This document shows positions 3,711 through 51,354 of a stretch of DNA of 59,903 bases, piece by piece (the stretch's first letter is position 1; the number at the start of each line of letters is the position of its first letter). The notes below the pieces were generated by a model. That model searched no databases and had not been told where the DNA came from. It saw nothing but the letters and a program-made list of their open reading frames with translations. The position numbers were made by a program, and so were the translations under genes. The DNA is from an uncultured Campylobacterales bacterium (lineage in GTDB: Bacteria; Campylobacterota; Campylobacteria; Campylobacterales; CACVAW01), in the NCBI GenBank assembly GCA_902727925.1, contig CACVAW010000067.1:1-59903 (forward strand), given 5' to 3'.

Positions 3711-4443
3711 CATTATTTTTGTTGCTTTATTTGGAGCTAGTTTTGGCTCTTTTATGAATGTATTAATATATAGGATACCAAACGGTGTAAGTATGCTTGA
3801 ACCATATTCAAGCTGTCCATCTTGTAAGAACAATCTAAAGTTCTATCATAATATCCCAATCCTTTCTTATATTTTTTTAAGAGCATCTTGTGGGTTTTGT
3901 AAATCTAAGATATCTTTTGTTTATCCACTTGTTGAACTTGCTGGTATTGTTCTTTTTTGTTTTTTGTATATAAAAACCGATGATTTTATGTCAACCCTAA
4001 TCATGGGTAATATGTTTTTATTATTACTTGGACTTTCTATAATTGATTTTAGATTCAAAGCTGTCCCTGATAGTATGAATTTACTTGCACTTCTTCTTGC
4101 CGTTTTTAGCTATGGTACAGAACTTTTGGTATTTAATTTAATTAATGCTTTACTTTTTATTGGTGGGTTTTGTCTACTTAGATTTATAGTGTCATATTTC
4201 AAGAAACAAGAATCTATGGGTGAAGCTGACATCATCATAGCTGGTACTATAGGAGCTGTTTTAGGTGTCAAGCTTGGTCTTGTAGCTATTGTATTATCAT
4301 CTGTATTAGCTCTAATTGCGTTTGTATTTGTGGCAAAAAAGGATTATGAACTACCTTATGTACCATTTCTTAGTTTAGCTATGCTTTTAGTATATATTTA
4401 TCAAAAACAGTTCTTGATACTTATTGAATATTTATACGCATAA
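3700..4443 (+). CDS. Prepilin peptidase (A24 family, PilD-like)
   Basis: Inner-membrane aspartic peptidase that cleaves and often N-methylates type IV prepilins or type II secretion pseudopilins. The N-terminal domain has FGASFGSFMNVLIYRIP and a zinc-type double CxxC (CPSC and CGFC). Catalytic aspartates lie in IDFRFKAVPD and in GEADI, where the usual GxGD motif reads GEAD. About seven hydrophobic segments follow. GTG at 3700 is preferred because GGAG at 3691 is correctly spaced, while the in-frame TTG at 3697 is too close. The order uppS - peptidase - permease matches Campylobacter. No pilin gene is nearby. Confidence 0.88.
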   Translation: MDFNIIFVALFGASFGSFMNVLIYRIPNGVSMLEPYSSCPSCKNNLKFYHNIPILSYIFLRASCGFCKSKISFVYPLVELAGIVLFCFLYIKTDDFMSTLIMGNMFLLLLGLSIIDFRFKAVPDSMNLLALLLAVFSYGTELLVFNLINALLFIGGFCLLRFIVSYFKKQESMGEADIIIAGTIGAVLGVKLGLVAIVLSSVLALIAFVFVAKKDYELPYVPFLSLAMLLVYIYQKQFLILIEYLYA

Positions 4444-5475: not shown

Positions 5476-6221
5476 TTAGGCTCTACAAAAAAACTTTCTT
5501 GATGGATTTTTGTAAATGCTTTTTTCAAAGACACAAAAAGATCTTTGTTACTGCTTTCTAAAGTTGCTAAAAGTTCTTTAGCTTCTGCTCTTGCTCGTGG
5601 CATCTTTACATCAAACCTAAAAGCAGGACATGCCTCATCTCCAATAACAGGAAAGTCATTAAGCTTTGCACACTCTGCTAGTTGTCTTTCTCTTGCCATT
5701 ATGAGTGGTCTTATTACTTCTACCCCATTTTCAGCTGTATACACAGGAGGAAGCGAACGAAGAGACCCGTTATAAGTGAAATTCATAAAAAAGCTTTCTA
5801 CTGCGTCATCAAGGTGATGTCCAAGAGCAAGTTTATTGTATCCTTGTGCTAATGCAGTTCCATATAAAGCTCCTCTTCTCATACGAGAAAAAAAGCTACA
5901 AAAAGATGAGTTCTTACGAATCTTCTCGCCTGCAAGTTCAAAAGTTTTAGTTTGTATTACTTCATGTTCAATTCCGTATTTCTCACAATGCTTAGTTATA
6001 AAACTATAGTCTTCACCTGGCATACCATAATTCACAGTCACTGCTTTGATATGAAAATCAAAAGGTACAACTCTTTGAATATGTTTTAAGGTATGTGTAA
6101 GTGTAAATGAGTCTTTTCCACCACTAAGACCAACAAGTACTTTATCACCCTCTTTTATAAGCCCATAAGTTCCATTTGTCTTACCTGCAAGACTTAAAAT
6201 ACTTTTACTAATCTTTACCAA
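5472..6221 (-). CDS. TtcA-family tRNA 2-thiolation protein with incomplete iron-sulfur cysteines
   Basis: PP-loop ATPase of the TtcA family, which converts cytidine-32 of some tRNAs to 2-thiocytidine. The PP-loop SGGKDS lies at 33-38, and SRMRRGALYGTA and LALGHHLDDAVESFFMN are further family motifs. In E. coli TtcA the [4Fe-4S] cluster is held by three cysteines from two CxxC motifs. Here both motifs have lost the second cysteine (C108-S-F-F and C198-P-A-F), so only two candidate ligands remain. The 249 aa length is also short. Either the lineage uses another ligand or the activity differs. It overlaps mdh by 14 nt, so the two are probably co-transcribed. Confidence 0.82.
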   Translation of the reverse strand: MVKISKSILSLAGKTNGTYGLIKEGDKVLVGLSGGKDSFTLTHTLKHIQRVVPFDFHIKAVTVNYGMPGEDYSFITKHCEKYGIEHEVIQTKTFELAGEKIRKNSSFCSFFSRMRRGALYGTALAQGYNKLALGHHLDDAVESFFMNFTYNGSLRSLPPVYTAENGVEVIRPLIMARERQLAECAKLNDFPVIGDEACPAFRFDVKMPRARAEAKELLATLESSNKDLFVSLKKAFTKIHQESFFVEPN

Positions 6222-7128
6222 AAAAATCTCTTTGTAATACTTCTATTAGTTCTGTTACTTTTGAAATACTATGATCAAACCCTTGTTTTTCACTAGGAGT
6301 CAAATCAAGTTTTATCTCTTCACTAATACCGTTTTTACCAAGTTTTACAAGTACACCACTAACACTTTTGTACTCATTTAAATATATAGCTACTGGTAAA
6401 ACCTTGTTTTGATCTAATAGTATAGATTCAACCATAAGTGAAACACTCTTTGCTGGAGCATAGTAAGCTGATCCCGTCTTAAGAAGCTCAACTATTTGTT
6501 TACCACCATTTTGAGTAGAGCTCACTACCTTTGATATAATATCACTGTCTAGTACTTCATCAAGACTTCTACCGTCTACCGTGCACTTTGATATGATAGG
6601 TACCATAGAATCACCATGACCACCTAGTACTACACTTTTCACATCTTTTGCATTTGGTAACTCTTGCCTTACAAAATAATTCATTCTAGCACTATCAAGA
6701 ATCCCAGCCATACCCATCACTTTACTAGTATCAAAACCTGATACCTTAAGCGCAGTATAAACCATAGCGTCAAGTGGATTTGAAACTACTATTATTATAC
6801 TTTTAGGAGCGTGTTCTTTTATATTTTTAGTAACACTACTTACAATACCTGCATTTTTAAGTAGCAAATCATCTCTACTCATTCCAGGACGGCGAGGAAT
6901 ACCAGCAGTCACTACTACTATATCACTGTTTTTTATATCTTCATAATCACTTGAAAGCTTTATATTTACATAATTACCAAGTGTCGAAGCTTCTGATATA
7001 TCAAGAGCCATAGCATTTGTTTTGTCTTTATCTATATCGACAAGTACTATATCAACATTCAAATCAATCAAAGTAAAAGCTAATGTGCTACCTACATTAC
7101 CTGCACCAATTATTGATACTTTTTTCAT
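6208..7128 (-). CDS. mdh: Malate dehydrogenase
   Basis: NAD-dependent oxidation of malate to oxaloacetate in the TCA cycle. The Rossmann start IIGAGNVGST (residues 6-15) and D31 after it bind NAD. Substrate specificity is set by the loop GIPRRPGMSRDDLL, where Arg at the second position (R80) is the malate rather than lactate choice. The catalytic His is H171 in GGHGDSMVP. The length of 306 aa is slightly short of the 310-320 aa LDH-like MDH family. It shares a transcription unit with the ttcA-like gene, whose start lies inside its 3' end. Confidence 0.93.
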   Translation of the reverse strand: MKKVSIIGAGNVGSTLAFTLIDLNVDIVLVDIDKDKTNAMALDISEASTLGNYVNIKLSSDYEDIKNSDIVVVTAGIPRRPGMSRDDLLLKNAGIVSSVTKNIKEHAPKSIIIVVSNPLDAMVYTALKVSGFDTSKVMGMAGILDSARMNYFVRQELPNAKDVKSVVLGGHGDSMVPIISKCTVDGRSLDEVLDSDIISKVVSSTQNGGKQIVELLKTGSAYYAPAKSVSLMVESILLDQNKVLPVAIYLNEYKSVSGVLVKLGKNGISEEIKLDLTPSEKQGFDHSISKVTELIEVLQRDFFGKD

Positions 7129-7651: not shown

Positions 7652-9277
7652 TTAATTTAATCTTTTATTTTGTAGATTAAATATTTTTGATTTTAATTTT
7701 TTAATTTCAAAACTTTTTTCTTTAAGTGAAAGTGAACTATCTCTGCTTAATCTTTGAAGCTTTGTATTATAACTCTTAAGTACCAATATATATAATTGAC
7801 TTTTAAACATGTTTTCATCAAGTTCTTTTATATCATCTCTAATCAATATTGAGTTCAAACCTGATAGCTCATTACTCAATATAAGTTCAAATTCATTTTT
7901 ATGAAAAGTGAAGAAATCACTATCAATTATATCAAGAGTATAATCAATCAAGTTTGAGTTTAGAAGAAGTGTTTTAATTAGGCTAAGTTCTGCAATATCT
8001 TCTTTTGTTGTTTGGGTATTGAAGTTTACTTTTGTAGCTGAGTTAGTTTTTATTAATCTTATGTCTACTTTGAGGATTGAAGCTACATATGGTTTGTATT
8101 CATCTTGTAGTATTGGTGAGAGTGTTCTTAGATACTTCATAGCTTCTACAAAAGCACTTTCTTTTAATGTTGGATTATTAATATCAAACTTTGAGACTAT
8201 GGTTTCAAGGACAAACTTCACAAGTGCTGTTGAATTATCAAACAAGCTTTGAAGCTCGTTAAGTTTATCTTCTCTTACCATGTCAGCGGGGTCTTTACCA
8301 TCACCAAAAAGTACAACTCCACCATTAATTCCATGAGATGAGAGTAGTGAAGAGGCTTTAAATGCCGCATTAATACCTGCATCATCACCATCATAAGCAA
8401 GTACTACAAAAGCATTTGATTTCTTGATAAGTGGTATATGATCATTTGTAAGAGCTGTACCTAGAGTTGCAACTGCATGATCAAATCCCACTTGATGAAG
8501 CATCACCACATCAAGATACCCTTCTGTTATTATTATTTTATTTCGTCTATAAATATTTTTTGAAGCTAGATTGTATCCATAGAGTAATCTTGATTTATTA
8601 AATACCTTGCTTTGAGGAGAGTTTATATATTTAGCTGGATGATCAGTAATAGTCCTACCACCAAACCCAACAATACGAGAACTGGGGCTTAGTATTGGAA
8701 ATGTTATTCGTTTTATAAATCTTGCATAAACTTCATTTTCACTACTAACAACTCCAAGCTCTTCAAGGTCATTCATCTGATAAAAATTATCTTTATAAAA
8801 CTGCATAGTTTTGCTCGACTCTGGAGCATATCCTATTTCAAACTTTTCGATAGATCTTGTTTTGATACCTCTTGATTTTAAATAATTCATCGCATCAGGA
8901 TTTGAGTGTAGTTGTGAAACGAAATAGTTATTAAGTGAGCTTAATATCCCCTCTTTTTTTTTATTGTCAATATTCGCTTTCTCATTACTATATGTAAGTG
9001 TAATGTTATATTCACTAGCAAGTTCTTCTAAGGCTTCAACATACCCTAAGTTCTCATATTCCATCACAAACTTAATACTATCCCCACCTTTAGTACAACC
9101 AAAGCAATGATATATCTGTTTAGATGGACTTACTACAAAGCTAGGTGACTTTTCGTCATGAAAAGGGCAACAAGCCTTAAAATTTGCACCATTTTTCTTA
9201 AGCTCTATTCTAGAAGAAACCACATCTATAATATCAAGTGAGTTTTTAAGAGTTTCTATACTAGATTGTTCGATCAA
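7652..9277 (-). CDS. dnaG: DNA primase
   Basis: Synthesises RNA primers at the replication fork. The CHC2 zinc-ribbon is at the N terminus (CCPFHDEKSPSF with H40, then YHCFGC, C58 and C61). The core has YAPESSK, the RFIKRITFPI segment and the TOPRIM metal-binding motifs ITEGYLDVV and AYDGDDAG. The C-terminal region, which normally binds DnaB, is divergent and AT-rich. At 541 aa it is a little shorter than E. coli DnaG (581 aa), as in other Campylobacterota. It is not in a macromolecular-synthesis operon with rpsU/rpoD. The nearest upstream sequence is the repeat cluster at 9318-9620. Confidence 0.96.
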   Translation of the reverse strand: MIEQSSIETLKNSLDIIDVVSSRIELKKNGANFKACCPFHDEKSPSFVVSPSKQIYHCFGCTKGGDSIKFVMEYENLGYVEALEELASEYNITLTYSNEKANIDNKKKEGILSSLNNYFVSQLHSNPDAMNYLKSRGIKTRSIEKFEIGYAPESSKTMQFYKDNFYQMNDLEELGVVSSENEVYARFIKRITFPILSPSSRIVGFGGRTITDHPAKYINSPQSKVFNKSRLLYGYNLASKNIYRRNKIIITEGYLDVVMLHQVGFDHAVATLGTALTNDHIPLIKKSNAFVVLAYDGDDAGINAAFKASSLLSSHGINGGVVLFGDGKDPADMVREDKLNELQSLFDNSTALVKFVLETIVSKFDINNPTLKESAFVEAMKYLRTLSPILQDEYKPYVASILKVDIRLIKTNSATKVNFNTQTTKEDIAELSLIKTLLLNSNLIDYTLDIIDSDFFTFHKNEFELILSNELSGLNSILIRDDIKELDENMFKSQLYILVLKSYNTKLQRLSRDSSLSLKEKSFEIKKLKSKIFNLQNKRLN

Positions 9278-11334: not shown

Positions 11335-13802
11335 ATCTCTTCTAATACGTCAGGTTCTACGTCTTCAGCCTTTGGACATTTTGATAGTGCTACAACTTTG
11401 TCTTTACCTTCAACTCTTACAACTATAACACCACTAGTATTTCTACCAGCTTGTCTGATATTTTGCATATCAGTTCTTATCATTTTACCAGTACTCGTAA
11501 GAAGCATTAAGTCTTTGTCATCTTCTACTATTACACAGCCTACCATATCAGCAGTCTTAGATGTAAGCTTCATTGCAATCACACCTTTACCTGCACGTGA
11601 TTGTAATCTGTATTCTCCCGCATCTGTTCTTTTACCTATACCTTTTTGACTAAGAGCAAGTATTTCTTGGTTATCGTCAACTAGTGTCACACCACCTACA
11701 ACTTCATCATCTTCATGTTTGAATTTAATAGCAGTCACACCTGTCCCTACTCTACCTATTTCTCTTGCATCTTCGACGTTAAATTTTATACACATACCTT
11801 TTTTCGTTACGACAAAAAGATTTTGTATATTCGGTGTTACAATTTCAGCATTTACAAGTTCATCATCTTCTCTTAGATTGATAGCTTTAACACCTACTGT
11901 TCTTATGTTTTTATATTCACTTAAGTTTGTTCTTTTTACTATTCCACGTTTTGTGAAGAATACTAATGATTTATGATTATCAAAATCATTTGTAGGGATT
12001 ATTGCCTTTATGCTTTCTCCAGCTGATAAGCTTATAAGATTAACTACTGCTTTACCTTTAGCCACTCTGCTTCCCTCAGGTATTTTGTATACTTTTAACC
12101 AATGCAATTGCCCTTTATTTGTAATAAACAACAATGTATCATGAGTATTTGCAATAAAGAAGTTTTCAATAAAGTCATCTTCATAAGTGGTAAGTGCAGT
12201 TTTACCTTTACCACCTCTATTTTGTTTTTCATATGAATCGAGTGGTACTCTTTTGATGTATCCATTATGAGTTATTGTTACAACCATAGACTCGTTTGGT
12301 ATAAGATCTTCTATATCAATTTCATCATAGTCATCTTCGATTACAGTTAATCTTGGAGTTGAATATTTTTCTTTTATTTCTACTAATTCTTCTTTTATTA
12401 ATTCGTTTAATAAATTTTCATCTTTTAGTATTGCTGTTAGTTCTTCTATTATTTTCATAAGTTCAAGTAATTCAGCTTCAAGTTTATCACGTTCAAGTCC
12501 TGTAAGCTTTCCTAATCTCATATCAAGAATTGCACCTGCTTGAATGTCACTCAAAGAGAATGTTTCTTTTAATGAAGCTTTTGCTGAACTTGTATCTGAA
12601 CTTGCTCTTATCATCTTTACTATTGCATCGATATTATCAACAGCAATTCGTAAACCTTCAAGTATATGAGCTCTTGCTTTTGATTTTTCAAGATCAAATA
12701 GTGTTCTTCTTATTACTACTGTTTTTCTATGTTTTAAGAATAGCTTAAGTAGCTCAATTAATGAAAATACTTTTGGTTCTTTATTTTCAATTGCTAATAA
12801 AAATATAGAAAATGTTATTTGTAGACTTGTAGATTTGTATAAGTTGTTAAGTATTATCTCACTCATTGCGTCGCGTTTAAGCTCAATTACTACTCTTATA
12901 CCATCTCTATCACTTTCATCTCTAACCTCAGATATACCTTCTATATGTTTATCTTTTACTAGGTTTGCTATTTGTTCAATGAGTCTTGATTTATTTACTT
13001 GATATGGTATTTCATCGATGACAATTACTTCTTTGTTTTTCATTGTCTCAATATGAGTTTTTGCACGAAGTTTTATTTTACCTCGTCCACTCTCATAAGC
13101 ATCAGTGATACCTTTTTTACCAAATATCGTTCCGCCTGTTGGGAAGTCTGGTCCAATTACATGTTCCATAATCTCTTCAAGACTTGTCTCAGGATTATCT
13201 ACTACAAGCAATAATGCCTCAACAAGTTCATCAAGTCTATGAGGAGGTACATTTGTAGCCATACCAACAGCTATACCATTTGAGCCATTAAGAAGTAATC
13301 CAGGAAGTTTTGTAGGTAATACTTCAGGTTCAAAACTACTATCATCATAAGTAGGCACAAAATCAACTGTTTCTTTTTCTAAATCTTTTAGATAATCCTC
13401 TGCTATTGGCATCATTCTAGCTTCTGTATATCTCATAGCTGCCGCGTTATCACCATCAATTGAGCCGAAGTTTCCTTGACCGTCAATTAGAGGCATTCTC
13501 ATAGAGAAATGCTGAGCTAATCTTACAAGAGCGTCATATACAGCAGTATCACCATGAGGATGATACTTACCTATAGTATCACCTACTATACGAGCAGACT
13601 TCTTATAAGATGCTTTTGAAGTGACTTTTAGATCATTCATAGCATATAGAACTCGTCTATGAACTGGTTTAAGACCATCTCTAGCATCAGGAAGAGCCCG
13701 ACCTACAATAACGCTCATAGAGTAATCAAGATAGCTTGATTTTATAGAGTCTTCTATGTTTATATCTGTTACATCTGAGGAAGATTCTAATAAGTTTGAC
13801 AT
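11331..13802 (-). CDS. gyrA: DNA gyrase subunit A
   Basis: Catalytic DNA-cleaving subunit of gyrase, which introduces negative supercoils with GyrB. The protein begins with SSYLDYSMSVIVGRALPDARDGLKPV. The catalytic tyrosine is Y125 in AAAMRYTEARM. The quinolone-determining region reads HPHGDTAVYD, with T86 and D90, the unmutated state in Campylobacter numbering. The GyrA-box (QNRGGKGK) and six beta-pinwheel repeats fill the C-terminal half. The 823 aa length is normal for the group. It follows accC by 5 nt and precedes the HIT gene with a 4-nt overlap. Confidence 0.97.
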   Translation of the reverse strand: MSNLLESSSDVTDINIEDSIKSSYLDYSMSVIVGRALPDARDGLKPVHRRVLYAMNDLKVTSKASYKKSARIVGDTIGKYHPHGDTAVYDALVRLAQHFSMRMPLIDGQGNFGSIDGDNAAAMRYTEARMMPIAEDYLKDLEKETVDFVPTYDDSSFEPEVLPTKLPGLLLNGSNGIAVGMATNVPPHRLDELVEALLLVVDNPETSLEEIMEHVIGPDFPTGGTIFGKKGITDAYESGRGKIKLRAKTHIETMKNKEVIVIDEIPYQVNKSRLIEQIANLVKDKHIEGISEVRDESDRDGIRVVIELKRDAMSEIILNNLYKSTSLQITFSIFLLAIENKEPKVFSLIELLKLFLKHRKTVVIRRTLFDLEKSKARAHILEGLRIAVDNIDAIVKMIRASSDTSSAKASLKETFSLSDIQAGAILDMRLGKLTGLERDKLEAELLELMKIIEELTAILKDENLLNELIKEELVEIKEKYSTPRLTVIEDDYDEIDIEDLIPNESMVVTITHNGYIKRVPLDSYEKQNRGGKGKTALTTYEDDFIENFFIANTHDTLLFITNKGQLHWLKVYKIPEGSRVAKGKAVVNLISLSAGESIKAIIPTNDFDNHKSLVFFTKRGIVKRTNLSEYKNIRTVGVKAINLREDDELVNAEIVTPNIQNLFVVTKKGMCIKFNVEDAREIGRVGTGVTAIKFKHEDDEVVGGVTLVDDNQEILALSQKGIGKRTDAGEYRLQSRAGKGVIAMKLTSKTADMVGCVIVEDDKDLMLLTSTGKMIRTDMQNIRQAGRNTSGVIVVRVEGKDKVVALSKCPKAEDVEPDVLEEI

Positions 13803-42231: not shown

Positions 42232-43326
42232 TTGGACGCATACGAATATACCGAACTAATAAAAGTACTAAAATCAAAGATAGCAAATATATCAGCTATA
42301 GTCAAACCTGATGAATTAAAATCCAAACTCAAAGACATTGAACTTCAAGAAGCAGAGCCATCATTTTGGGAAGACCCAAAAAATGCAGCAAAAGTACAAA
42401 AAGACAAAAACCAAAAACTAAGACTTCTAACAGCATTTAGCAAAGCTAATACGGCTCTAAACGATGCGTCTGAGCTATACCAAATGGCTCTAAGTGAAAA
42501 TGATGAAGATACAATAGAAGAACTTTTTTCTGATGCGCCTAGCCTAAATGAACATATAAAAGAACTTGAAATATCAATACTTCTTAGCAATGAAGAAGAC
42601 TCACTAAATGCTATCATATCTATTCACCCAGGAGCTGGAGGAACAGAATCTCAAGACTGGGCAGCGATGCTATACAGAATGTATCTCAAATGGGCAAAAG
42701 CAAAAGGCTTTAGCGTTGAAGAGCTAGATTATCAAGCTGGTGAAGAAGCTGGTATCAAAGATGTGAGTTTTAGAATCATAGGAGAAAATGCCTACGGTAT
42801 GCTAAAAGTTGAAAATGGTATTCACAGACTTGTAAGAATATCGCCTTTTGACTCAAATGCCAAAAGACATACATCATTCACATCTGTCATGGTATCACCC
42901 GAAGTAGATGATGATATAGATATAGTAATAGAAGATAGAGATATAAGAATAGATACATACAGAGCAAGTGGAGCTGGAGGTCAACATGTCAATAAAACAG
43001 ACTCAGCAATCAGAATAACACACATAGAAACAAACCTAGTAGTCCAATGCCAAAACGACCGTTCACAACACAAAAACAAAGCAAGTGCCATGAAAATGCT
43101 AAAGTCACGTCTATACGAACTTGAACTCGAAGCAAAACAAGCAGAAAAAGATGGTATAAGCAAAGATGAAATAGGATGGGGACATCAAATACGCTCATAT
43201 GTACTTGCACCATACAAACAAGTAAAAGACACAAGAAGTAATATAGCATACTCAAATGTAGACGCAATACTAGATGGAGACATCACAAAAGTCATGGAAG
43301 ACGCACTAGTATCCAAGCTAAAATAA
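42232..43326 (+). CDS. prfB: Peptide chain release factor 2
   Basis: Recognises UGA/UAA stop codons and triggers peptide release. The GGQ motif is in [15 protein letters not shown] (about 247-249), and the stop-codon tripeptide SPF lies in [15 protein letters not shown]. The start is TTG at 42232, with AGGAAG 5 nt upstream. The frame is open throughout (364 aa), so the programmed +1 frameshift that regulates prfB in E. coli is absent, as is usual in this lineage. The RhuM-Fic ATG overlaps the stop codon by one base. Confidence 0.96.
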
Positions 43327-44300
43327 TGAACAATATAATAATATACGAAAACGGAAATGTAGAATTAAAAACGACCGTTCAAGATGAGAGTGTTTGGCTA
43401 AGTCAAAAACAAATGGAATCCTTATTTGGTAGAGAAAGAAGTGTTATAACCAAACACATAAACAATGTATTCAAAGAAGGCGAATTAGAAAAATCTACAG
43501 TATGTGCAAATTTTGCACATACTGCAAAAGATAAAAAAACATATGATGTAAAACATTATAATTTAGATGTAATAATATCTGTAGGATACAGAGTAAAATC
43601 TAAACAAGGCACAAAGTTTAGACAATGGGCTACAACTATACTTAAAGATCATCTCATAAAAGGCTACACCCTAAACAAACAAAAGCTCGCATCCAAAAAA
43701 CTTGACGAACTAAACCAAACAATAAACTTCATAAAACAAAGTATCCAAAACAAAGAACTAAATACAAAAGAATCAAAAGGTTTCATCGAAATCATAAGCA
43801 ACTACGCAAAAAGTTGGGCTTTGCTACAAGGTTATGATGAAGGAAGTTTAATTGATGTATTAAAACAAGACAAAAAGAAGTTTATACTAGATTATGATGA
43901 AGCAAAACTAGCAATAAAAGAGTTTAAAACTATACTTATACAAAAAAACGAAGCTACAGAACTTTTCGGTAATGAAAAAGCAGATGAGCTAAAAGGACAT
44001 TTAAGAAGTATATATCAAACATTCGGAGGAATTGACTTATTACCTTCACTTGAATTAAAAGCTGCAAACCTACTATACTATGTAATAAAAGGACATCCAT
44101 TTAATGACGGAAACAAAAGAATAGGTGCATATCTATTCATACTATTTCTTTCAAAAAACAAATATTTATATAAACAAAATGGCGAACTAAAAATAAATGA
44201 TAATGCACTTACTACCATATCCCTTTTAGTAGCCTCATCCGATCCATCTCAAAAAGAAATAATAATAAAACTAATCACAAATATACTCTATGAAGAATAA
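43326..44300 (+). CDS. RhuM-Fic fusion protein
   Basis: Two modules. Residues 1-110 are a RhuM ('virulence protein') domain: WLSQKQMESLFGRERSVITKHINNVF, YDVKHYNLDVIISVGYRVKS and GTKFRQWATTILKDHLIKGY. The C-terminal Fic/Doc domain carries the full catalytic motif HPFNDGNKR at 257-265, which transfers AMP or another nucleotide or phosphate group to target proteins. Such fusions are mostly found on genomic islands next to restriction or toxin-antitoxin genes, and the RhuM part may bind DNA. It is wedged between prfB and truB and shares start/stop bases with prfB. No antitoxin is obvious. The target is unknown. Confidence 0.82.
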   Translation: MNNIIIYENGNVELKTTVQDESVWLSQKQMESLFGRERSVITKHINNVFKEGELEKSTVCANFAHTAKDKKTYDVKHYNLDVIISVGYRVKSKQGTKFRQWATTILKDHLIKGYTLNKQKLASKKLDELNQTINFIKQSIQNKELNTKESKGFIEIISNYAKSWALLQGYDEGSLIDVLKQDKKKFILDYDEAKLAIKEFKTILIQKNEATELFGNEKADELKGHLRSIYQTFGGIDLLPSLELKAANLLYYVIKGHPFNDGNKRIGAYLFILFLSKNKYLYKQNGELKINDNALTTISLLVASSDPSQKEIIIKLITNILYEE

Positions 44301-45182: not shown

Positions 45183-47315
45183 ATGAATAAAACATATGGT
45201 TGGGATAAATTTTTATCTTATGATAATTTTAAAGTAGCTTTTGATCGATTAAAAACTGCTCCAATGCATGAACATAAAAACTTATACCGAAATGAACTTA
45301 TTGCTTTTGAAATGTTTTTAGAAGAAAATCTATCAACTACCATTCAGTTACTCAAAGATGATGGCTATACAAACTTAAATCAAAAAGCATATAAGTTTTA
45401 TTTACCAAAACCAAAAGGTCTTGTTAGGCCAATTACCCACTTGTCATTTATAGATTTAATAGTATATCAGGCATTAGGTAATATAGTAGCAGAATCATTT
45501 AAAGATGTATTAAAACCTTATCAAAATAAAATGATTTTTGGTAATATATATAATGACGATAAAAATTCTAAAATATTCTTTTTTAAGCCTTGGAAATATA
45601 ATTGGAAAAATTTCCAAAAACTTTCAAAACAGTTTATTGACGATGAAGAATATAATTATATAGTTGAATTTGATATAGCTTCTTTTTATGACACAATTAA
45701 TCACAATGTTTTAAAGACAATTCTAGAAAAAAAGATAGATAAAAAAGTTGTTGATATTTTAATTTATATACTTAAATATAGTTCTGCAGACTTTTCAAGA
45801 CATCAAAATATCATTGCAAATGGAATTCCGCAAGGACCAATTGCTTCTGCTATCTTAGCGGAAGTGTTTCTAAATAATTTTTTTGACAATTTTTTTTCAA
45901 AACAAATGGGGAAAGATGAAATTAAGTATATAAGATATGCCGATGATATTAGAATATTTACAAAAGAAGAATATATAGGAAATAAATATATAACTATTTT
46001 AGACTTACTATGTAGGGATATAGGACTTATCCCACAATCATCAAAAATAGAAGTAAAAACTTGTCTAGACTCAAAAGAATTTATAGATAATAGTGTAAAT
46101 AAATTTTCTCAAATCCAAAAGTATTATAAAAAGAACAACACTCTACAAAGCAAAGAAAATAATAAAGCCATTAAAGAACTTATTTCTATGATAAATAATA
46201 AAAAAATAGATAAAACAAAGTTCGGATTTTTTATATACAAAGTGTCAAAAGATGATGACTTAAAAGATTTATTAATAAAAAATATAAGTGAATTATTTTT
46301 ATTTATTAACGCCGTATTATTTTACTTACACAAACATTATATAGATGATACAGAAGTTGTAACTGAACTATATGAAAAAATTATAAAAAATAAAAAAGTT
46401 TATTTAGATTATCCTAAATTCATTTTTCTAAAATTTTTCTCTAAAAAAATACAATTTGATACAGAAGTATATGAAAAAGATTTTCTAGAAACAAATCAAA
46501 ATAAATGGTGGTTATACAAAAAAGAAATTCTTTCTTGGATGTTATATCATAATGAGAAAGATAAAATCTTATCAATAGAAACAAATGATAAAAATGAACT
46601 ATTAGAACAATATATAATCAAAGCAAAATATGACATAACAACAGATCTCACTTTAAAAGAAGAATTTGAAAATACATTAATTAATAGTGACTATCTAGGA
46701 AATCAAATTCTAGGTGTTTATCTTAAATATCAAAGAGTTTTCTTTAAATATAAAAATAATATAAAAATAAATAAAACTATTAGTATGTATTCTCCATTTT
46801 ATAATAAAGTTATTAATAATAAAGATTTTAATTTTCTAAATACAGAATTAAAAAAATCACATAAAGACTTAACAAATAATGAGATATTTTTCAATGAAAA
46901 AATTTTTTATAAACAAAATGAAGCATATCAACTTTATAATTTATTTAAGATGATGCTATCAAGTAAAAATAATAATAACTATAAATCATTTATTGATACT
47001 CTAGACCAACTTAGTCATATTATTACAGAAAGAATTCTACTAATACAAAACAGTGATATAACACTGGGTAATTATGGAAGTGAACTTAAGAATAATACTT
47101 TTTTATCTGAAACATTTTTTACCTTATCCCAATCATTTAATAAAATACATAAAATACGGAATAACGAACTACATCCAAAAGATTTAAAAACTGGAGAATT
47201 TCATTCAAAAAAAGATGAGTATGATACTAAACAAAGTATTATAAATGAGTACTATAATGAATGGATAGAGGTAATAGTAGAAATTCTAAACTGGTATATA
47301 AATAAAATTAAATAA
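45183..47315 (+). CDS. Reverse transcriptase with C-terminal HEPN motif (AbiA-like defence protein)
   Basis: A 710 aa protein. The N-terminal half is a reverse transcriptase: FYLPKPKGLVRPITHLSFIDLIVYQAL (about 73-99), FDIASFYDTINHNVL with catalytic Asp (about 162), GIPQGPIASAILAEVFLNNF and the polymerase motif RYADDIRIF (about 251). The middle is helical. Near the C terminus K-I-R-N-N-E-L-H gives R659-x4-H664, an R-x4-6-H HEPN-type RNase motif in a helical domain. A reverse transcriptase followed by a HEPN domain is the architecture of AbiA, a phage abortive-infection protein. No group II intron domain and no retron RNA were found, so an AbiA-type role is inferred. It follows truB by 61 nt. 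Confidence 0.8.
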   Translation: MNKTYGWDKFLSYDNFKVAFDRLKTAPMHEHKNLYRNELIAFEMFLEENLSTTIQLLKDDGYTNLNQKAYKFYLPKPKGLVRPITHLSFIDLIVYQALGNIVAESFKDVLKPYQNKMIFGNIYNDDKNSKIFFFKPWKYNWKNFQKLSKQFIDDEEYNYIVEFDIASFYDTINHNVLKTILEKKIDKKVVDILIYILKYSSADFSRHQNIIANGIPQGPIASAILAEVFLNNFFDNFFSKQMGKDEIKYIRYADDIRIFTKEEYIGNKYITILDLLCRDIGLIPQSSKIEVKTCLDSKEFIDNSVNKFSQIQKYYKKNNTLQSKENNKAIKELISMINNKKIDKTKFGFFIYKVSKDDDLKDLLIKNISELFLFINAVLFYLHKHYIDDTEVVTELYEKIIKNKKVYLDYPKFIFLKFFSKKIQFDTEVYEKDFLETNQNKWWLYKKEILSWMLYHNEKDKILSIETNDKNELLEQYIIKAKYDITTDLTLKEEFENTLINSDYLGNQILGVYLKYQRVFFKYKNNIKINKTISMYSPFYNKVINNKDFNFLNTELKKSHKDLTNNEIFFNEKIFYKQNEAYQLYNLFKMMLSSKNNNNYKSFIDTLDQLSHIITERILLIQNSDITLGNYGSELKNNTFLSETFFTLSQSFNKIHKIRNNELHPKDLKTGEFHSKKDEYDTKQSIINEYYNEWIEVIVEILNWYINKIK

Positions 47316-47420: not shown

Positions 47421-48410
47421 ATGAATAACTCAAACATTTTAATTTATCAAACCCAAGATGGTCAAACAAATATTGAAACACGACTTGAAAATGAAACAGT
47501 TTGGTTATCACAAGAACAGATGTCAGAGCTTTTTCAAAAAAGCCGTTCAACTATAAATGAACATATAAAAAATATCTACAAAGAAAAAGAACTTGAAAAA
47601 CCGCTCACTATGAAGAAATTCGGAAATTCCGAATTTGCTAAAAAACCTACAAACCTTTACAATCTTGATGTCATCATATCAGTAGGATATAAAGTAAAAT
47701 CACTCCAAGGTACTAAGTTCCGTCAGTGGGCGACAACAAGACTCAAAGAATACATAGTAAAAGGTTTTACTATGAATGACGAGTTGCTTAAAATTGCTGG
47801 TGGTGGAAACTATTTTGAAGAGTTATTATCTCGTATTAGAGATATACGAAGTAGTGAAAAGATCTTTTGGAGAAAAGTACTTGATATATATGCTACAAGT
47901 ATAGATTATGATCCAAAAGCTGAAACTTCAATACTGTTTTTTCAAACTATCCAAAATAAAATGCATTGGGCAGTTCATGGTAATACCGCTGCAGAGATTA
48001 TATATAAAAGAGTAAATAGTAGTCAAAAAAATATGGGGCTTACAAATTTCAAAGGAGACAAACCTACAAAACAAGAAATAAGCATTGCAAAAAATTATCT
48101 AAAAGAAGATGAATTAAATCTTTTAAATCGTATGGTCACAGCATATATTGAGATAGCAGAAATCCAAGCTATGAACCAAACACCAATGTATATGGAAGAT
48201 TGGATTCAAAGGCTTGATGATTTTTTAAAAATGACAGGAAAAAATATACTAAAAAATTTTGGAAAAGTATCTCATGATAAAGCTATACAAAAAGCGAATA
48301 AAGAGTATCTAGAATATAAAAAAAAAACAAAAGATGAACTCTCTCGTATCGAAAAGGATTTTCTCAAACAAATAGACTCTACAGCCAAAATGCTAAAAAA
48401 TAAAAAATAG
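47421..48410 (+). CDS. RhuM family protein (stand-alone)
   Basis: A 329 aa protein of the RhuM family, first named in a Salmonella pathogenicity island; function unknown. The N-terminal 110 residues parallel the RhuM half of the protein at 43326: WLSQEQMSELFQKSRSTINEHIKNIY, YNLDVIISVGYKVKS and GTKFRQWATTRLKEYIVKGF. The C-terminal part is different: instead of Fic it has RIRDIRSSEKIFWRKVLDIYATSIDYDPKA, MHWAVHGNTAAEIIYKR and a long helical end, the classic RhuM C-terminal domain. Stand-alone RhuM genes are usually beside restriction-modification or defence genes, consistent with this island. Confidence 0.85.
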   Translation: MNNSNILIYQTQDGQTNIETRLENETVWLSQEQMSELFQKSRSTINEHIKNIYKEKELEKPLTMKKFGNSEFAKKPTNLYNLDVIISVGYKVKSLQGTKFRQWATTRLKEYIVKGFTMNDELLKIAGGGNYFEELLSRIRDIRSSEKIFWRKVLDIYATSIDYDPKAETSILFFQTIQNKMHWAVHGNTAAEIIYKRVNSSQKNMGLTNFKGDKPTKQEISIAKNYLKEDELNLLNRMVTAYIEIAEIQAMNQTPMYMEDWIQRLDDFLKMTGKNILKNFGKVSHDKAIQKANKEYLEYKKKTKDELSRIEKDFLKQIDSTAKMLKNKK

Positions 48411-48418
48411 AATCTATT

Positions 48419-49084
48419 TTGAAAAAACACTTCATAAAAAACACATGTGAAAGCATCAACTTAATGAATTACCAAATCATCCGTAAACCAATCAAAAACA
48501 TATACATAAGAGTAACTCTTAACGACATAATAGTATCAGCTCCCAAAAGAGCTAGTATGAGACTAATAAACAAAGTAGTACAAAATAAAAAAGAGTGGAT
48601 TGAAAAAAGAGTTCAAGAGATAAACCAACAAAATATTCTAAGTAAAAAAAATGCCTTTTATCTAGGACAAAAATATAACCTAGAGATAATAGCCTCAGAT
48701 GAAAACAAAGTTGGGCTAACTACCAATAATATGCAAGTATATGGCAATAAAGACTATCTTGAAAACTGGTATAAAAACGAAGCCAAAAAGATACTCCCAG
48801 ATATGCTAAAAAACATAAACTCCAAAACTCTAAACAAAGATATAAAATCTCTTAAAATACGAAAGATGAAAACAAGATGGGGAAGCTGTAACCATACAAA
48901 AAGATATATCAACCTCAACAGTGAACTAATAAAAAAGCCTACCCCAGCTATAGAGTATGTGATACTCCATGAATTAGCTCACTTGATACATCCAAATCAT
49001 AGCAAAGAGTTTTATTCCTGTATTGAAAGTTTTATGCCTGATTACAAGCAAAGAGAAAAATTACTAAGAAATAGCACTAAATAG
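48419..49084 (+). CDS. YgjP-like zinc metallopeptidase (DUF45/SprT-type)
   Basis: A 221 aa YgjP-family protein with the HELAHLIHPNHSKEF active site: two zinc histidines and catalytic Glu in HELAH, third ligand in the downstream NHS. RKMKTRWGSCNHTKRYINLNSEL is the second family block. The start is TTG at 48419. An ATG at 48464 (MNYQIIRKPIKNIYIRV) is a credible alternative that fits the family better. It begins 8 nt after the rhuM stop and ends 16 nt before the truncated cas1. In a complete type II-B locus cas9 would precede cas1, so this gene now sits where cas9 should be. Confidence 0.82.
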   Translation: MKKHFIKNTCESINLMNYQIIRKPIKNIYIRVTLNDIIVSAPKRASMRLINKVVQNKKEWIEKRVQEINQQNILSKKNAFYLGQKYNLEIIASDENKVGLTTNNMQVYGNKDYLENWYKNEAKKILPDMLKNINSKTLNKDIKSLKIRKMKTRWGSCNHTKRYINLNSELIKKPTPAIEYVILHELAHLIHPNHSKEFYSCIESFMPDYKQREKLLRNSTK

Positions 49085-49100
49085 AATAAAGACTATCCAA

Positions 49101-49937
49101 GTGTTATCTCGTGGTATATCTCTTTCAAGTGATTTGATAAATGCCTGTAGCCACAGAGGAATAAAGATATTTTTTAATACATTCAACTCCTTTAGTGCCT
49201 TACATACTCTATATGAGCATAAGTCTGTAACTATAAGAAAAAATCAATTTGAAGTTTGTGAAAACAACAATGGACTAGAACTAGCAAGACAACTAATCAT
49301 AGGAAAACTAAAAAACCAAAGAGCCACACTTCTATACTCAACTAGAACTATAAATAATGACTTAAAAAATCAGACTATAGAAGCCTTTGATATCCTCATA
49401 TCAAAACTAAAAAACAAAAAAGAACTATCAAGAGACTATATCATGGGAATTGAAGGGAAGTGTGCAAGTATATATTTTGAATTTCTCAAAAAGTCTTGTT
49501 TATTTCCACCTAGCTTTACAACAAGAACAAAAAGAAACTCCCAAGAAATAACAAACATAGCACTAAACTATGGATATACCATCCTTTTTAACTTCATCTA
49601 TAAATCAATTATTAACTCAGGACTTGAACCTTATTATGGTGTTCTACATAGTATAAGAAGTGCAAAACCATCACTAGTACTTGACATAATGGAAGAATAC
49701 AGAAGCTTCGTAGTTGATAGAAATATCATCAAATTAAGAAGTAGACTAGCAAATACAAAAGAATTTGATAAAATTAAAAAAAACATAGCTACAAATATAT
49801 TAAACACTCTATCAAAAAAATACAAATATAATCATAAAAAACTAACCCTTGAAAGTATCATCCAAAGACAAATATACAAAATATCAGGTTATATCTGTGA
49901 ACAAAACAAATATAAATCATATATATTCAGGTGGTAA
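49101..49937 (+). CDS. cas1: CRISPR integrase Cas1, N-terminally truncated
   Basis: Cas1 inserts new spacers together with Cas2. The catalytic residues are intact: E118 in MGIEGKCASIYF, H183 in PYYGVLHS, and D195 with neighbouring Glu in KPSLVLDIMEEYR. The protein begins at GISLSSDLINACSHRGIKIFF, which in full Cas1 proteins lies about 35-40 residues in, so the first beta-strand part of the N-terminal domain is missing. The frame is closed by a stop at 49065-49067, inside the upstream peptidase gene, and GTG at 49101 has a poor ribosome binding site. The protein may be misfolded or inactive. cas2 follows 1 nt after the stop. Confidence 0.85.
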   Translation: MLSRGISLSSDLINACSHRGIKIFFNTFNSFSALHTLYEHKSVTIRKNQFEVCENNNGLELARQLIIGKLKNQRATLLYSTRTINNDLKNQTIEAFDILISKLKNKKELSRDYIMGIEGKCASIYFEFLKKSCLFPPSFTTRTKRNSQEITNIALNYGYTILFNFIYKSIINSGLEPYYGVLHSIRSAKPSLVLDIMEEYRSFVVDRNIIKLRSRLANTKEFDKIKKNIATNILNTLSKKYKYNHKKLTLESIIQRQIYKISGYICEQNKYKSYIFRW

Positions 49938-49938
49938 C

Positions 49939-50226
49939 ATGTATACTCAAATAATAGTAAGCTATGACATAAGTAATACCAAAAATAGAAATAAATTCTT
50001 TGAAGAACTAAAAGATATAGGTCTTAAATCTATACAAAAGTCTGTAATGTGGGGATATATACTACCCAGCGAGAAGCGAATTATCAAAAATATATTTAAA
50101 AAATATTGTGAAATAAAAACTGACAAAGTCTTTATAGTAAATGCAACATTAGACAAAGACTTAAGTAACTCTTTTGGGTATGATGAAGATGACTTCAAAC
50201 ATCCTAATAGTTTTGAGATAATATGA
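49939..50226 (+). CDS. cas2: CRISPR-associated Cas2
   Basis: Small ferredoxin-fold partner of Cas1 in spacer integration. The protein starts MYTQIIVSYDISNTKNR, with the conserved Asp in the first strand (SYDIS). The 95 aa size is typical. I chose ATG 49939 because AGGTGG precedes it directly. A longer frame running back to 49849 only overlaps cas1. It overlaps cas4 by 4 nt. Confidence 0.9.
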   Translation: MYTQIIVSYDISNTKNRNKFFEELKDIGLKSIQKSVMWGYILPSEKRIIKNIFKKYCEIKTDKVFIVNATLDKDLSNSFGYDEDDFKHPNSFEII

Positions 50227-50792
50227 TACCAATTAATCTAATAAGACAATATAAATTTTGCCCAAGAATAGTATATTATAACTTACTCACAAATATAAAG
50301 CCTATATATCCAAGGCAAGTAAAACTAGGTCTTGACTATCATACTCTTCAAAACGAAATGATTAAAGCTAGAAAATTCAAAAAACTCAAAATAGAATTCA
50401 ATCAAATACTCAATGAAAAATATATAGAAAATTCAGAATTAAACATATGTGGGACAGTAGACTTAGCTTTTTTGTGTGAAGATGAGATAATTCCCGTTGA
50501 ATTTAAAGATATTGAATCTAAACCTAGCTATTCTCATATACTTCAACTTGTAGGTTATGGAATAACACTAGAAAAAAAATATAAAAAACCTTTTAAAATA
50601 GCTTTTATAATACATTCTAATAATATGAAATTTTTCAAAATCCAAATAACAGAAAAGCACAAAAATGATTTTTTTAATATATTAAAAAATATAAATCAAA
50701 TAATCAAAAATGATATACTACCCAAAAGTGACGCAAACGAAGCAAAATGTTTGCAATGTGAGTACCTCAACTACTGTGATGATAGATTTTAA
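50223..50792 (+). CDS. cas4: CRISPR-associated Cas4 nuclease
   Basis: RecB-like nuclease that selects and trims prespacers according to PAM. The protein begins MIPINLIRQYKFCPRIVYY with the first cluster cysteine. The nuclease motifs are CGTVDLAFL and IPVEFKD, and the remaining iron-sulfur cysteines lie in CLQCEYLNYC at the end. At 189 aa it is of normal Cas4 length. The order cas1-cas2-cas4 followed by tracrRNA and array is the type II-B arrangement (Francisella-like), in which cas9 should lie upstream of cas1. Nothing like cas9 is in this window. Confidence 0.88.
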   Translation: MIPINLIRQYKFCPRIVYYNLLTNIKPIYPRQVKLGLDYHTLQNEMIKARKFKKLKIEFNQILNEKYIENSELNICGTVDLAFLCEDEIIPVEFKDIESKPSYSHILQLVGYGITLEKKYKKPFKIAFIIHSNNMKFFKIQITEKHKNDFFNILKNINQIIKNDILPKSDANEAKCLQCEYLNYCDDRF

Positions 50793-50814
50793 AAGTTTTA
50801 CGGATGGGTATGGT

Positions 50815-50911
50815 AAAAACCAGTGACACCACTTCATTTGTATTTATCCGACGGTACTTTTAAACCTTTTATGATTTCAACCAGTGGTTGAGTTTAGTTA
50901 TAATTTGTTAG
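50815..50911 (-). ncRNA. Candidate tracrRNA
   Basis: Minus-strand RNA predicted from the array. Positions 50911 down to 50873 read as an anti-repeat in which 24 of the first 25 bases equal the CRISPR repeat (one change at the 18th base); the rest diverges so that it would pair with a bulge (CACTGG against TTAG). The tail contains ATCATAAAAGGTTTAAAAG, then a short hairpin (AGTG-GTGT-CACT) and a T5 run at 50819-50815, a plausible terminator. A -10 like TATAGT (complement of 50918-50923) lies just upstream. The size of about 97 nt agrees with known tracrRNAs. Arrangement and array orientation agree with type II-B. Confidence 0.7.
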
Positions 50912-51029
50912 TACTATACTATACCATTTTTTCCACAAATAACCAACTTTTTCTCTCTTTTTTATTTAACGAAAAAAATAAACTTTAAAAGCGACAATAC
51001 CTCCTATAAATAGGGGCTTTATTATTGCT

Positions 51030-51354
51030 CTAACAAATTATAACTAGACTCAACTTAGTTTGAAACTTGTATAAGTATTTTTTGATCAGTTGTTTTTACA
51101 ACTAACAAATTATAACTAGACTCAACTTAGTTTGAAACTGTAGAGTTCTTGATATTTTCATTCCTATCTTATTCTCTAACAAATTATAACTAGACTCAAC
51201 TTAGTTTGAAACCTTTTTGCCTCTTTTAAAAATGCTAACCACTAGGCTAACAAATTATAACTAGACTCAACTTAGTTTGAAACTTTGTTGAATCATTGCT
51301 AGTTCTGCTTGTGGGATCTAACAAATTATAACTAGACTCAACTTAGTTTGAAAC
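51030..51354 (-). CRISPR. CRISPR array, five repeats, type II-B-like
   Basis: Five identical 37-nt repeats (starting CTAAC and ending GAAAC on the plus strand) at 51030-51066, 51102-51138, 51176-51212, 51247-51283 and 51318-51354. They enclose four unique spacers of 35, 37, 34 and 34 nt. The repeat ends resemble the Francisella II-B repeat. By analogy with that system, and because the tracrRNA must pair with it, transcription runs on the minus strand from right to left, giving crRNA repeats beginning GTTTC. All repeats being identical argues that the array was active recently. Spacer origins cannot be judged here. Confidence 0.93.

Follow-up and report, generated by a model that had tools for sequence, protein, structure and literature searches.

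The CRISPR locus of an uncultured Campylobacterales bacterium raises the question of which effector it served, what became of that effector and what the remaining parts can still do. The window, a stretch of 59,903 nucleotides, takes up all of contig C67 in a metagenome-assembled genome (MAG) of 1.50 Mb (69 contigs, 99.2% complete). This genome is the sole representative of its family among the 399 genomes of the order used as the sample of relatives, and the related loci were taken from Campylobacterales MAGs. On the plus strand the genes run in the order RhuM-Fic protein, truB, UG19 reverse transcriptase, RhuM, YgjP, cas1, cas2 and cas4, followed by an anti-repeat and a CRISPR array. We consider the locus, with a probability of about 0.8, to be a recently decapitated, non-functional type II-B system adjoining or lying within a defence island that comprises the UG19 reverse transcriptase, RhuM and YgjP.

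Identity of the cas genes and their complete relatives

Pfam, NCBIfam and PADLOC agreed on the identities of the three cas genes, confirming the cas1-cas2-cas4 assignment of the original prediction, which had been made from the window sequence alone. All three lie on the plus strand: a 5'-truncated cas1 at 49101–49937 (top PADLOC model Cas1_II, E = 9.1e-117, profile positions 44–317), and type II-B cas2 at 49939–50226 (Cas2_II, E = 4e-34) and cas4 at 50223–50792 (Cas4_II, E = 2.8e-62), both with intact frames. The identity of cas1 to five named relatives was 72–80%, and close relatives shared 71–80% identity with cas2 and 65–74% with cas4. With 65–80% identity to Cas9-bearing loci and these best PADLOC models, a cas1-cas2-cas4 set of the II-B lineage is present.

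The gene order Cas9, cas1, cas2, cas4 recurs in eleven related loci, the closest of which have the tracrRNA and array downstream of cas4. The complete loci of the relatives were all II-B when examined for another CRISPR type. Four of the five named relatives have a single upstream Cas9 frame of 1335–1485 aa, and the Cas9 region of the fifth (L005) consists of two overlapping frames. The Cas9 of Arcobacter sp. CPC16 (L007) has a Csx12 alpha-helical lobe and an HNH domain by Pfam and matches solved Cas9 structures including FnCas9 (5b2o/5b2q), and on these grounds is of II-B type. This locus, L003–L006 and L021 share with the window the order and strand of cas1-cas2-cas4-tracrRNA-array; the window tracrRNA can be aligned with theirs over its whole length, and the L007 repeat differs from the window repeat at one base in 37. 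Upstream of a full-length cas1 these loci carry a Cas9 of ~1335–1485 aa, whereas the window has a junction with ygjP there. The L007 cas1 (5766–6600) is split by a frameshift while its cas9 is open, which is either real decay or an assembly error.

Absence of Cas9

No Cas9 was detected in the source genome at E ≤ 10, either with the profiles TIGR01865 and TIGR03031 or with the 1332-aa L007 Cas9 as query. A tblastn search of the window with nine related Cas9 proteins returned chance-level scraps only (E ~1 or worse), in agreement with the earlier observation that it holds no cas9-sized frame. In this order the csx12 profile has good sensitivity, with matches in 13 of the 399 genomes. Across the sample, a csx12-type Cas9 was found in all eight other genomes with a cas1 at E ≤ 1e-60, located 2–4 kb upstream of cas1 on the same strand. 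Seven of the 399 genomes gave strong matches (E < 1e-6) to the tracrRNA model described below; six carry Cas9, and the source genome is the sole exception. A Csx12-kind Cas9 in cis upstream of cas1, present in the relatives, is thus missing from the window, and none was detected in the rest of the genome. Because the complete relatives carry Csx12-type Cas9, there is hardly any doubt that the lost effector was a II-B Cas9.

The breakpoint in cas1

When the window was aligned with the 5' part of cas1 from six close relatives, a breakpoint emerged at 49067/49068, internal to one contig. Homology to the relatives begins abruptly at 49068 (GAAATAGCACTAAATAG), which is codon 31 of the complete gene and exactly the position at which the original prediction had started the locus. 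The sequence 5' of 49068 is entirely ygjP, a gene for a YgjP-like metallopeptidase (48419–49084, plus strand; Pfam PF01863, profile positions 1–206 of 207 matched), whose last five codons and stop (49084) fall on cas1 DNA. At the junction, cas9 is missing altogether, as are ~30 codons from the 5' end of cas1. Together with the order of the eleven related loci and the lack of a detectable Cas9 in the genome, this sharp breakpoint strongly supports the reading of a type II-B locus whose effector was lost.

An in-frame TAA at 49065–49067 precedes cas1, and the first in-frame start is a GTG at 49101 with no obvious Shine-Dalgarno sequence. The N-terminus of Cas1 lacks ~41 residues (the profile match starts at 44 of 317), and its residue 7 corresponds to residue 48 in an alignment with the Cas1 structure 4n06, which also shows the active-site E, H and D regions to be retained. 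The frames of Cas2 and Cas4 are intact, and the complete Cas1 that a functional adaptation module requires is lacking. The adaptation module is therefore damaged too, as Cas1 is truncated at its N-terminus. The proposal of an orphan adaptation module kept with crRNA and tracrRNA accordingly stands for the lost effector and for the intact-looking RNA parts, but not for adaptation, since cas1 is cut at its 5' end.

The tracrRNA and its upstream region

A tracrRNA was delimited on the minus strand at 50783–50911 from an alignment of 6–8 relatives and a consensus structure; it consists of the anti-repeat (50911–50877), a nexus (GGTTGAAATCAT) and a 3' hairpin that extends to the stop codon of cas4. 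The anti-repeat RNA candidate noted earlier proved sound: positions 50887–50911 pair with the repeat at 24 of 25 nt without gaps, and the gapped pairing of the tracrRNA with the full 37-nt repeat amounts to −35.2 kcal/mol. Among the seven loci compared, the best partner of every tracrRNA is the repeat of its own locus. The nexus and the 3' hairpin are conserved, and at 6 of the 18 consensus pairs one or more sequences have both partners changed. A covariance model (R1) built from nine loci matched the window at 50783–50939 with 134.8 bits, and no Rfam family was matched close to the locus at a threshold as loose as E ≤ 1. The conserved hairpin requires the sequence up to the cas4 stop; the fold of a shorter stretch (50805–50912) had no unusual stability (z = 0.44). 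Weak matches of the model in two further genomes (G340 and G091) had no adjoining repeats and were discarded.

Upstream of the tracrRNA, a conserved box (TTTGTGGAAAA) and a TATA-like element occupy 50917–50939 on the minus strand. The box (minus 50939–50929) is invariant in 9 of 9 loci, namely the window, L003–L007, L021, L022 and L024, despite varying repeats and spacing, and farther up it is preceded by a T-rich TTTTT(C/G) block. In one genome (G058, locus L023) there are two matches to the tracrRNA model, one beside cas4 and the other upstream of cas9 (raw positions 5717–5834, plus, and 11476–11609, minus), and a small array (4117–4302, with L023 taken in reversed orientation) lies away from cas4.

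The CRISPR array

The array occupies 51030–51354 on the minus strand. The sequence bears out the five identical 37-nt repeats reported earlier (51030–51066, 51102–51138, 51176–51212, 51247–51283 and 51318–51354), which read GTTTCAAACTAAGTTGAGTCTAGTTATAATTTGTTAG on the minus strand and enclose four spacers of 34–37 nt. The direction was assigned as in II-B systems, whose arrays are transcribed against the cas operon (PMC3936727). Every repeat carries a promoter-like TTCAAA-16-TATAAT on the minus strand, as in Campylobacter jejuni, where each repeat has its own promoter (PMC3656092). These promoter-like sequences and the tracrRNA structure fit, at the level of sequence, transcription of the array opposite to the cas operon, and by analogy the crRNAs and the tracrRNA are both predicted to be read from the minus strand. 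Judged from their sequences, the guide-RNA parts all look usable.

No second array with the same repeat was found in the source genome. Searches of the spacers against viral contigs for exact stretches of 21–33 nt gave no match, and nothing was found among plasmids. Phage matches to the spacers (91%, E = 0.03) extended into the repeat and were taken as chance.

A spacer resembling host rho

Spacer 2 (51139–51175, minus strand) resembles a segment of host rho (G000:C45:2608-2633, L041), with 24 matches in 26 nt (E = 7.2e-4), and its next-best match outside the locus has E = 0.06. Over 27 nt there are three mismatches, all at third codon positions of rho. The strand of crRNA2 is antisense to rho mRNA, and the duplex of −33.6 kcal/mol was the best of 4483 stretches scanned. 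Positions 1 and 3 of the spacer, next to the repeat, mismatch rho, which argues against self-cutting of rho by Cas9 in the present sequence. The match may also have arisen by chance, because the genome is AT-rich. Self-targeting has been proposed as a cause of CRISPR decay (PMC6882279), so a rho-like spacer could also have prompted the loss instead of pointing to a new function.

Origin and age of the loss

In the reading that we prefer, a rearrangement would have put ygjP, at the end of the defence island, inside cas1 and deleted cas9 in full together with ~30 codons of the cas1 5' end. Comparison with the complete relatives shows cas2, cas4, the tracrRNA and the array to be nearly untouched. 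The crRNAs would be expected to arise singly from the minus-strand promoters inside each repeat and then to form a duplex with the tracrRNA; lacking a Cas9 partner, they presumably cannot direct cleavage. A truncated Cas1 without its N-terminal strands appears unlikely to add spacers. Since there is no Cas9 to cut targets and the truncated Cas1 would add no spacer, the locus most likely gives no immunity.

In protein trees the branch lengths of the window were 0.139 for Cas1 (relatives of the clade, 0.09–0.29) and 0.237 for Cas4 (relatives, 0.12–0.29), neither of them longer than is seen in Cas9-bearing relatives; that of Cas2 (0.188) was mildly longer than those of the relatives (0.06–0.15). 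Neither cas2 nor cas4 has a frameshift, and the repeats are identical. With no sign of decay in what is left of the locus, the loss seems, on the scale of protein divergence and as far as these sequences indicate, to be recent. Continued selection is an alternative to recent loss, and the two would be separable only with close sister strains.

Alternative explanations

Of the other explanations, a chimeric assembly or strain mixture behind the junction, with a complete locus in the true genome, is improbable in our view. The assembly is metagenome-derived and the breakpoint lies between a foreign-looking island and cas1, as a chimera would have it, but no contig of the assembly holds the leftover piece that it predicts, one with cas9 and the cas1 5' end, and the ygjP match ends within one position of the profile end, as for a tolerated natural breakpoint. 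It is about equally improbable that a Cas9 exists in the organism on a plasmid or unbinned contig outside the MAG and acts in trans with the array and tracrRNA. In its favour, the tracrRNA is intact, as are the repeats to which it is co-adapted, plasmids are often missing from MAGs, and plasmids or islands may be missing from this assembly of 69 contigs. Against a Cas9 in trans, the MAG is 99.2% complete with no trace of Cas9, cas9 stands in cis beside cas1 in all relatives examined, and the source genome has only one array with this repeat. The original prediction had offered cas9 elsewhere in the genome as a second possibility and had called for a genome-wide search; the search found none, and the trans reading gained no positive support.

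An RNA-only or regulatory use of the leftover pair, also raised at the outset, gained no positive support beyond the weak resemblance of spacer 2 to rho. It would have the crRNA-tracrRNA pair kept for a role independent of Cas9, for example with crRNA2 pairing antisense to rho mRNA, or with a small-RNA function of the tracrRNA. The RNAs are preserved without an effector, spacer 2 offers a 24/26 match with an antisense crRNA strand and the best duplex of the scan, and there is a precedent in the type II-C scaRNA, which represses efeO with no detectable contribution of Cas9 (PMC13431127). Recent loss accounts for the preservation equally well, however, the rho match is within the reach of chance in an AT-rich genome, and crRNA stability requires Cas9 in the type II systems studied (PMC3656092). 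We therefore regard such a role as very unlikely, and its specific form, a Cas9-free regulatory system kept after the loss with crRNA2 acting on host rho mRNA, as more unlikely still. The loss of another class 2 effector such as Cas12l is scarcely credible. Cas12l loci share the gene order effector-cas1-cas2-cas4-array (PMC9724661), but the relatives with 72–80% identical Cas1, and L007 with its nearly identical repeats, carry Csx12-type Cas9. Cas12l loci have their tracrRNA between the effector and cas1 (PMC9724661), whereas in the window and its II-B relatives it is found between cas4 and the array. By the definition of type V-L (PMC9724661), no Cas12l-like frame of ~860 aa was found between ygjP and cas1.

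Comparison with known systems

Decayed type II loci are already known, and the window would be a new and unusually clean II-B example. Francisella novicida U112 (FnCas9) has a cas4-bearing type II-B locus, as does the window, and its array is read against the cas operon (PMC3936727), the direction predicted for the window too, but its system is complete whereas the window lacks Cas9. The II-C system of C. jejuni has a promoter within each repeat (PMC3656092), comparable to the promoter-like sequences in the window repeats. In strain RM1221, cas9 was lost naturally by a premature stop with the rest of the locus present (PMC3656092); there cas9 is a pseudogene in a II-C locus without cas4, whereas in the window it is wholly deleted along with the start of cas1. 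Among Mollicutes, 8 of 21 type II systems are inactivated, and one array with a predicted tracrRNA has no cas genes (PMC6882279); these degraded loci are II-A or II-C and belong to another phylum, in contrast to the II-B locus here. On the preferred reading, the window holds a natural class 2 locus caught just after effector loss, whose breakpoint can be placed to the base and set against complete relatives. Such a locus would allow the fate of crRNA, tracrRNA and adaptation after Cas9 loss to be tested, as well as whether defence islands displace CRISPR effectors. Taken alone, the locus shows no new mechanism.

The adjoining island

The reverse transcriptase of the UG19 (DRT) defence-associated group (45183–47315, plus strand; PADLOC RT_UG19, E = 1.1e-146; Pfam RVT_1) is part of the island now adjoining the CRISPR locus. 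Its gene has a very low G + C content (22%), and a C-terminal R-x4-H motif (RNNELH) is suggestive of a HEPN domain; no close relative was found among the 399 genomes of the order. The same island encodes a RhuM family protein (47421–48410, plus strand; Pfam PF13310, E = 5e-105), and a RhuM-Fic fusion protein (PADLOC candidate PDC-S23) is encoded at 43326–44300, between prfB and truB.

The gap between cas9 and cas1 seems to be a recurrent insertion site in the relatives, where it carries toxin-antitoxin-like genes: RhuM in L021 (raw 8385–9206, minus), a HepT-like and nucleotidyltransferase pair in L003 (8176–8878) and a nucleotidyltransferase-like frame in L006 (8582–8878). The window likewise has RhuM shortly upstream of cas1.
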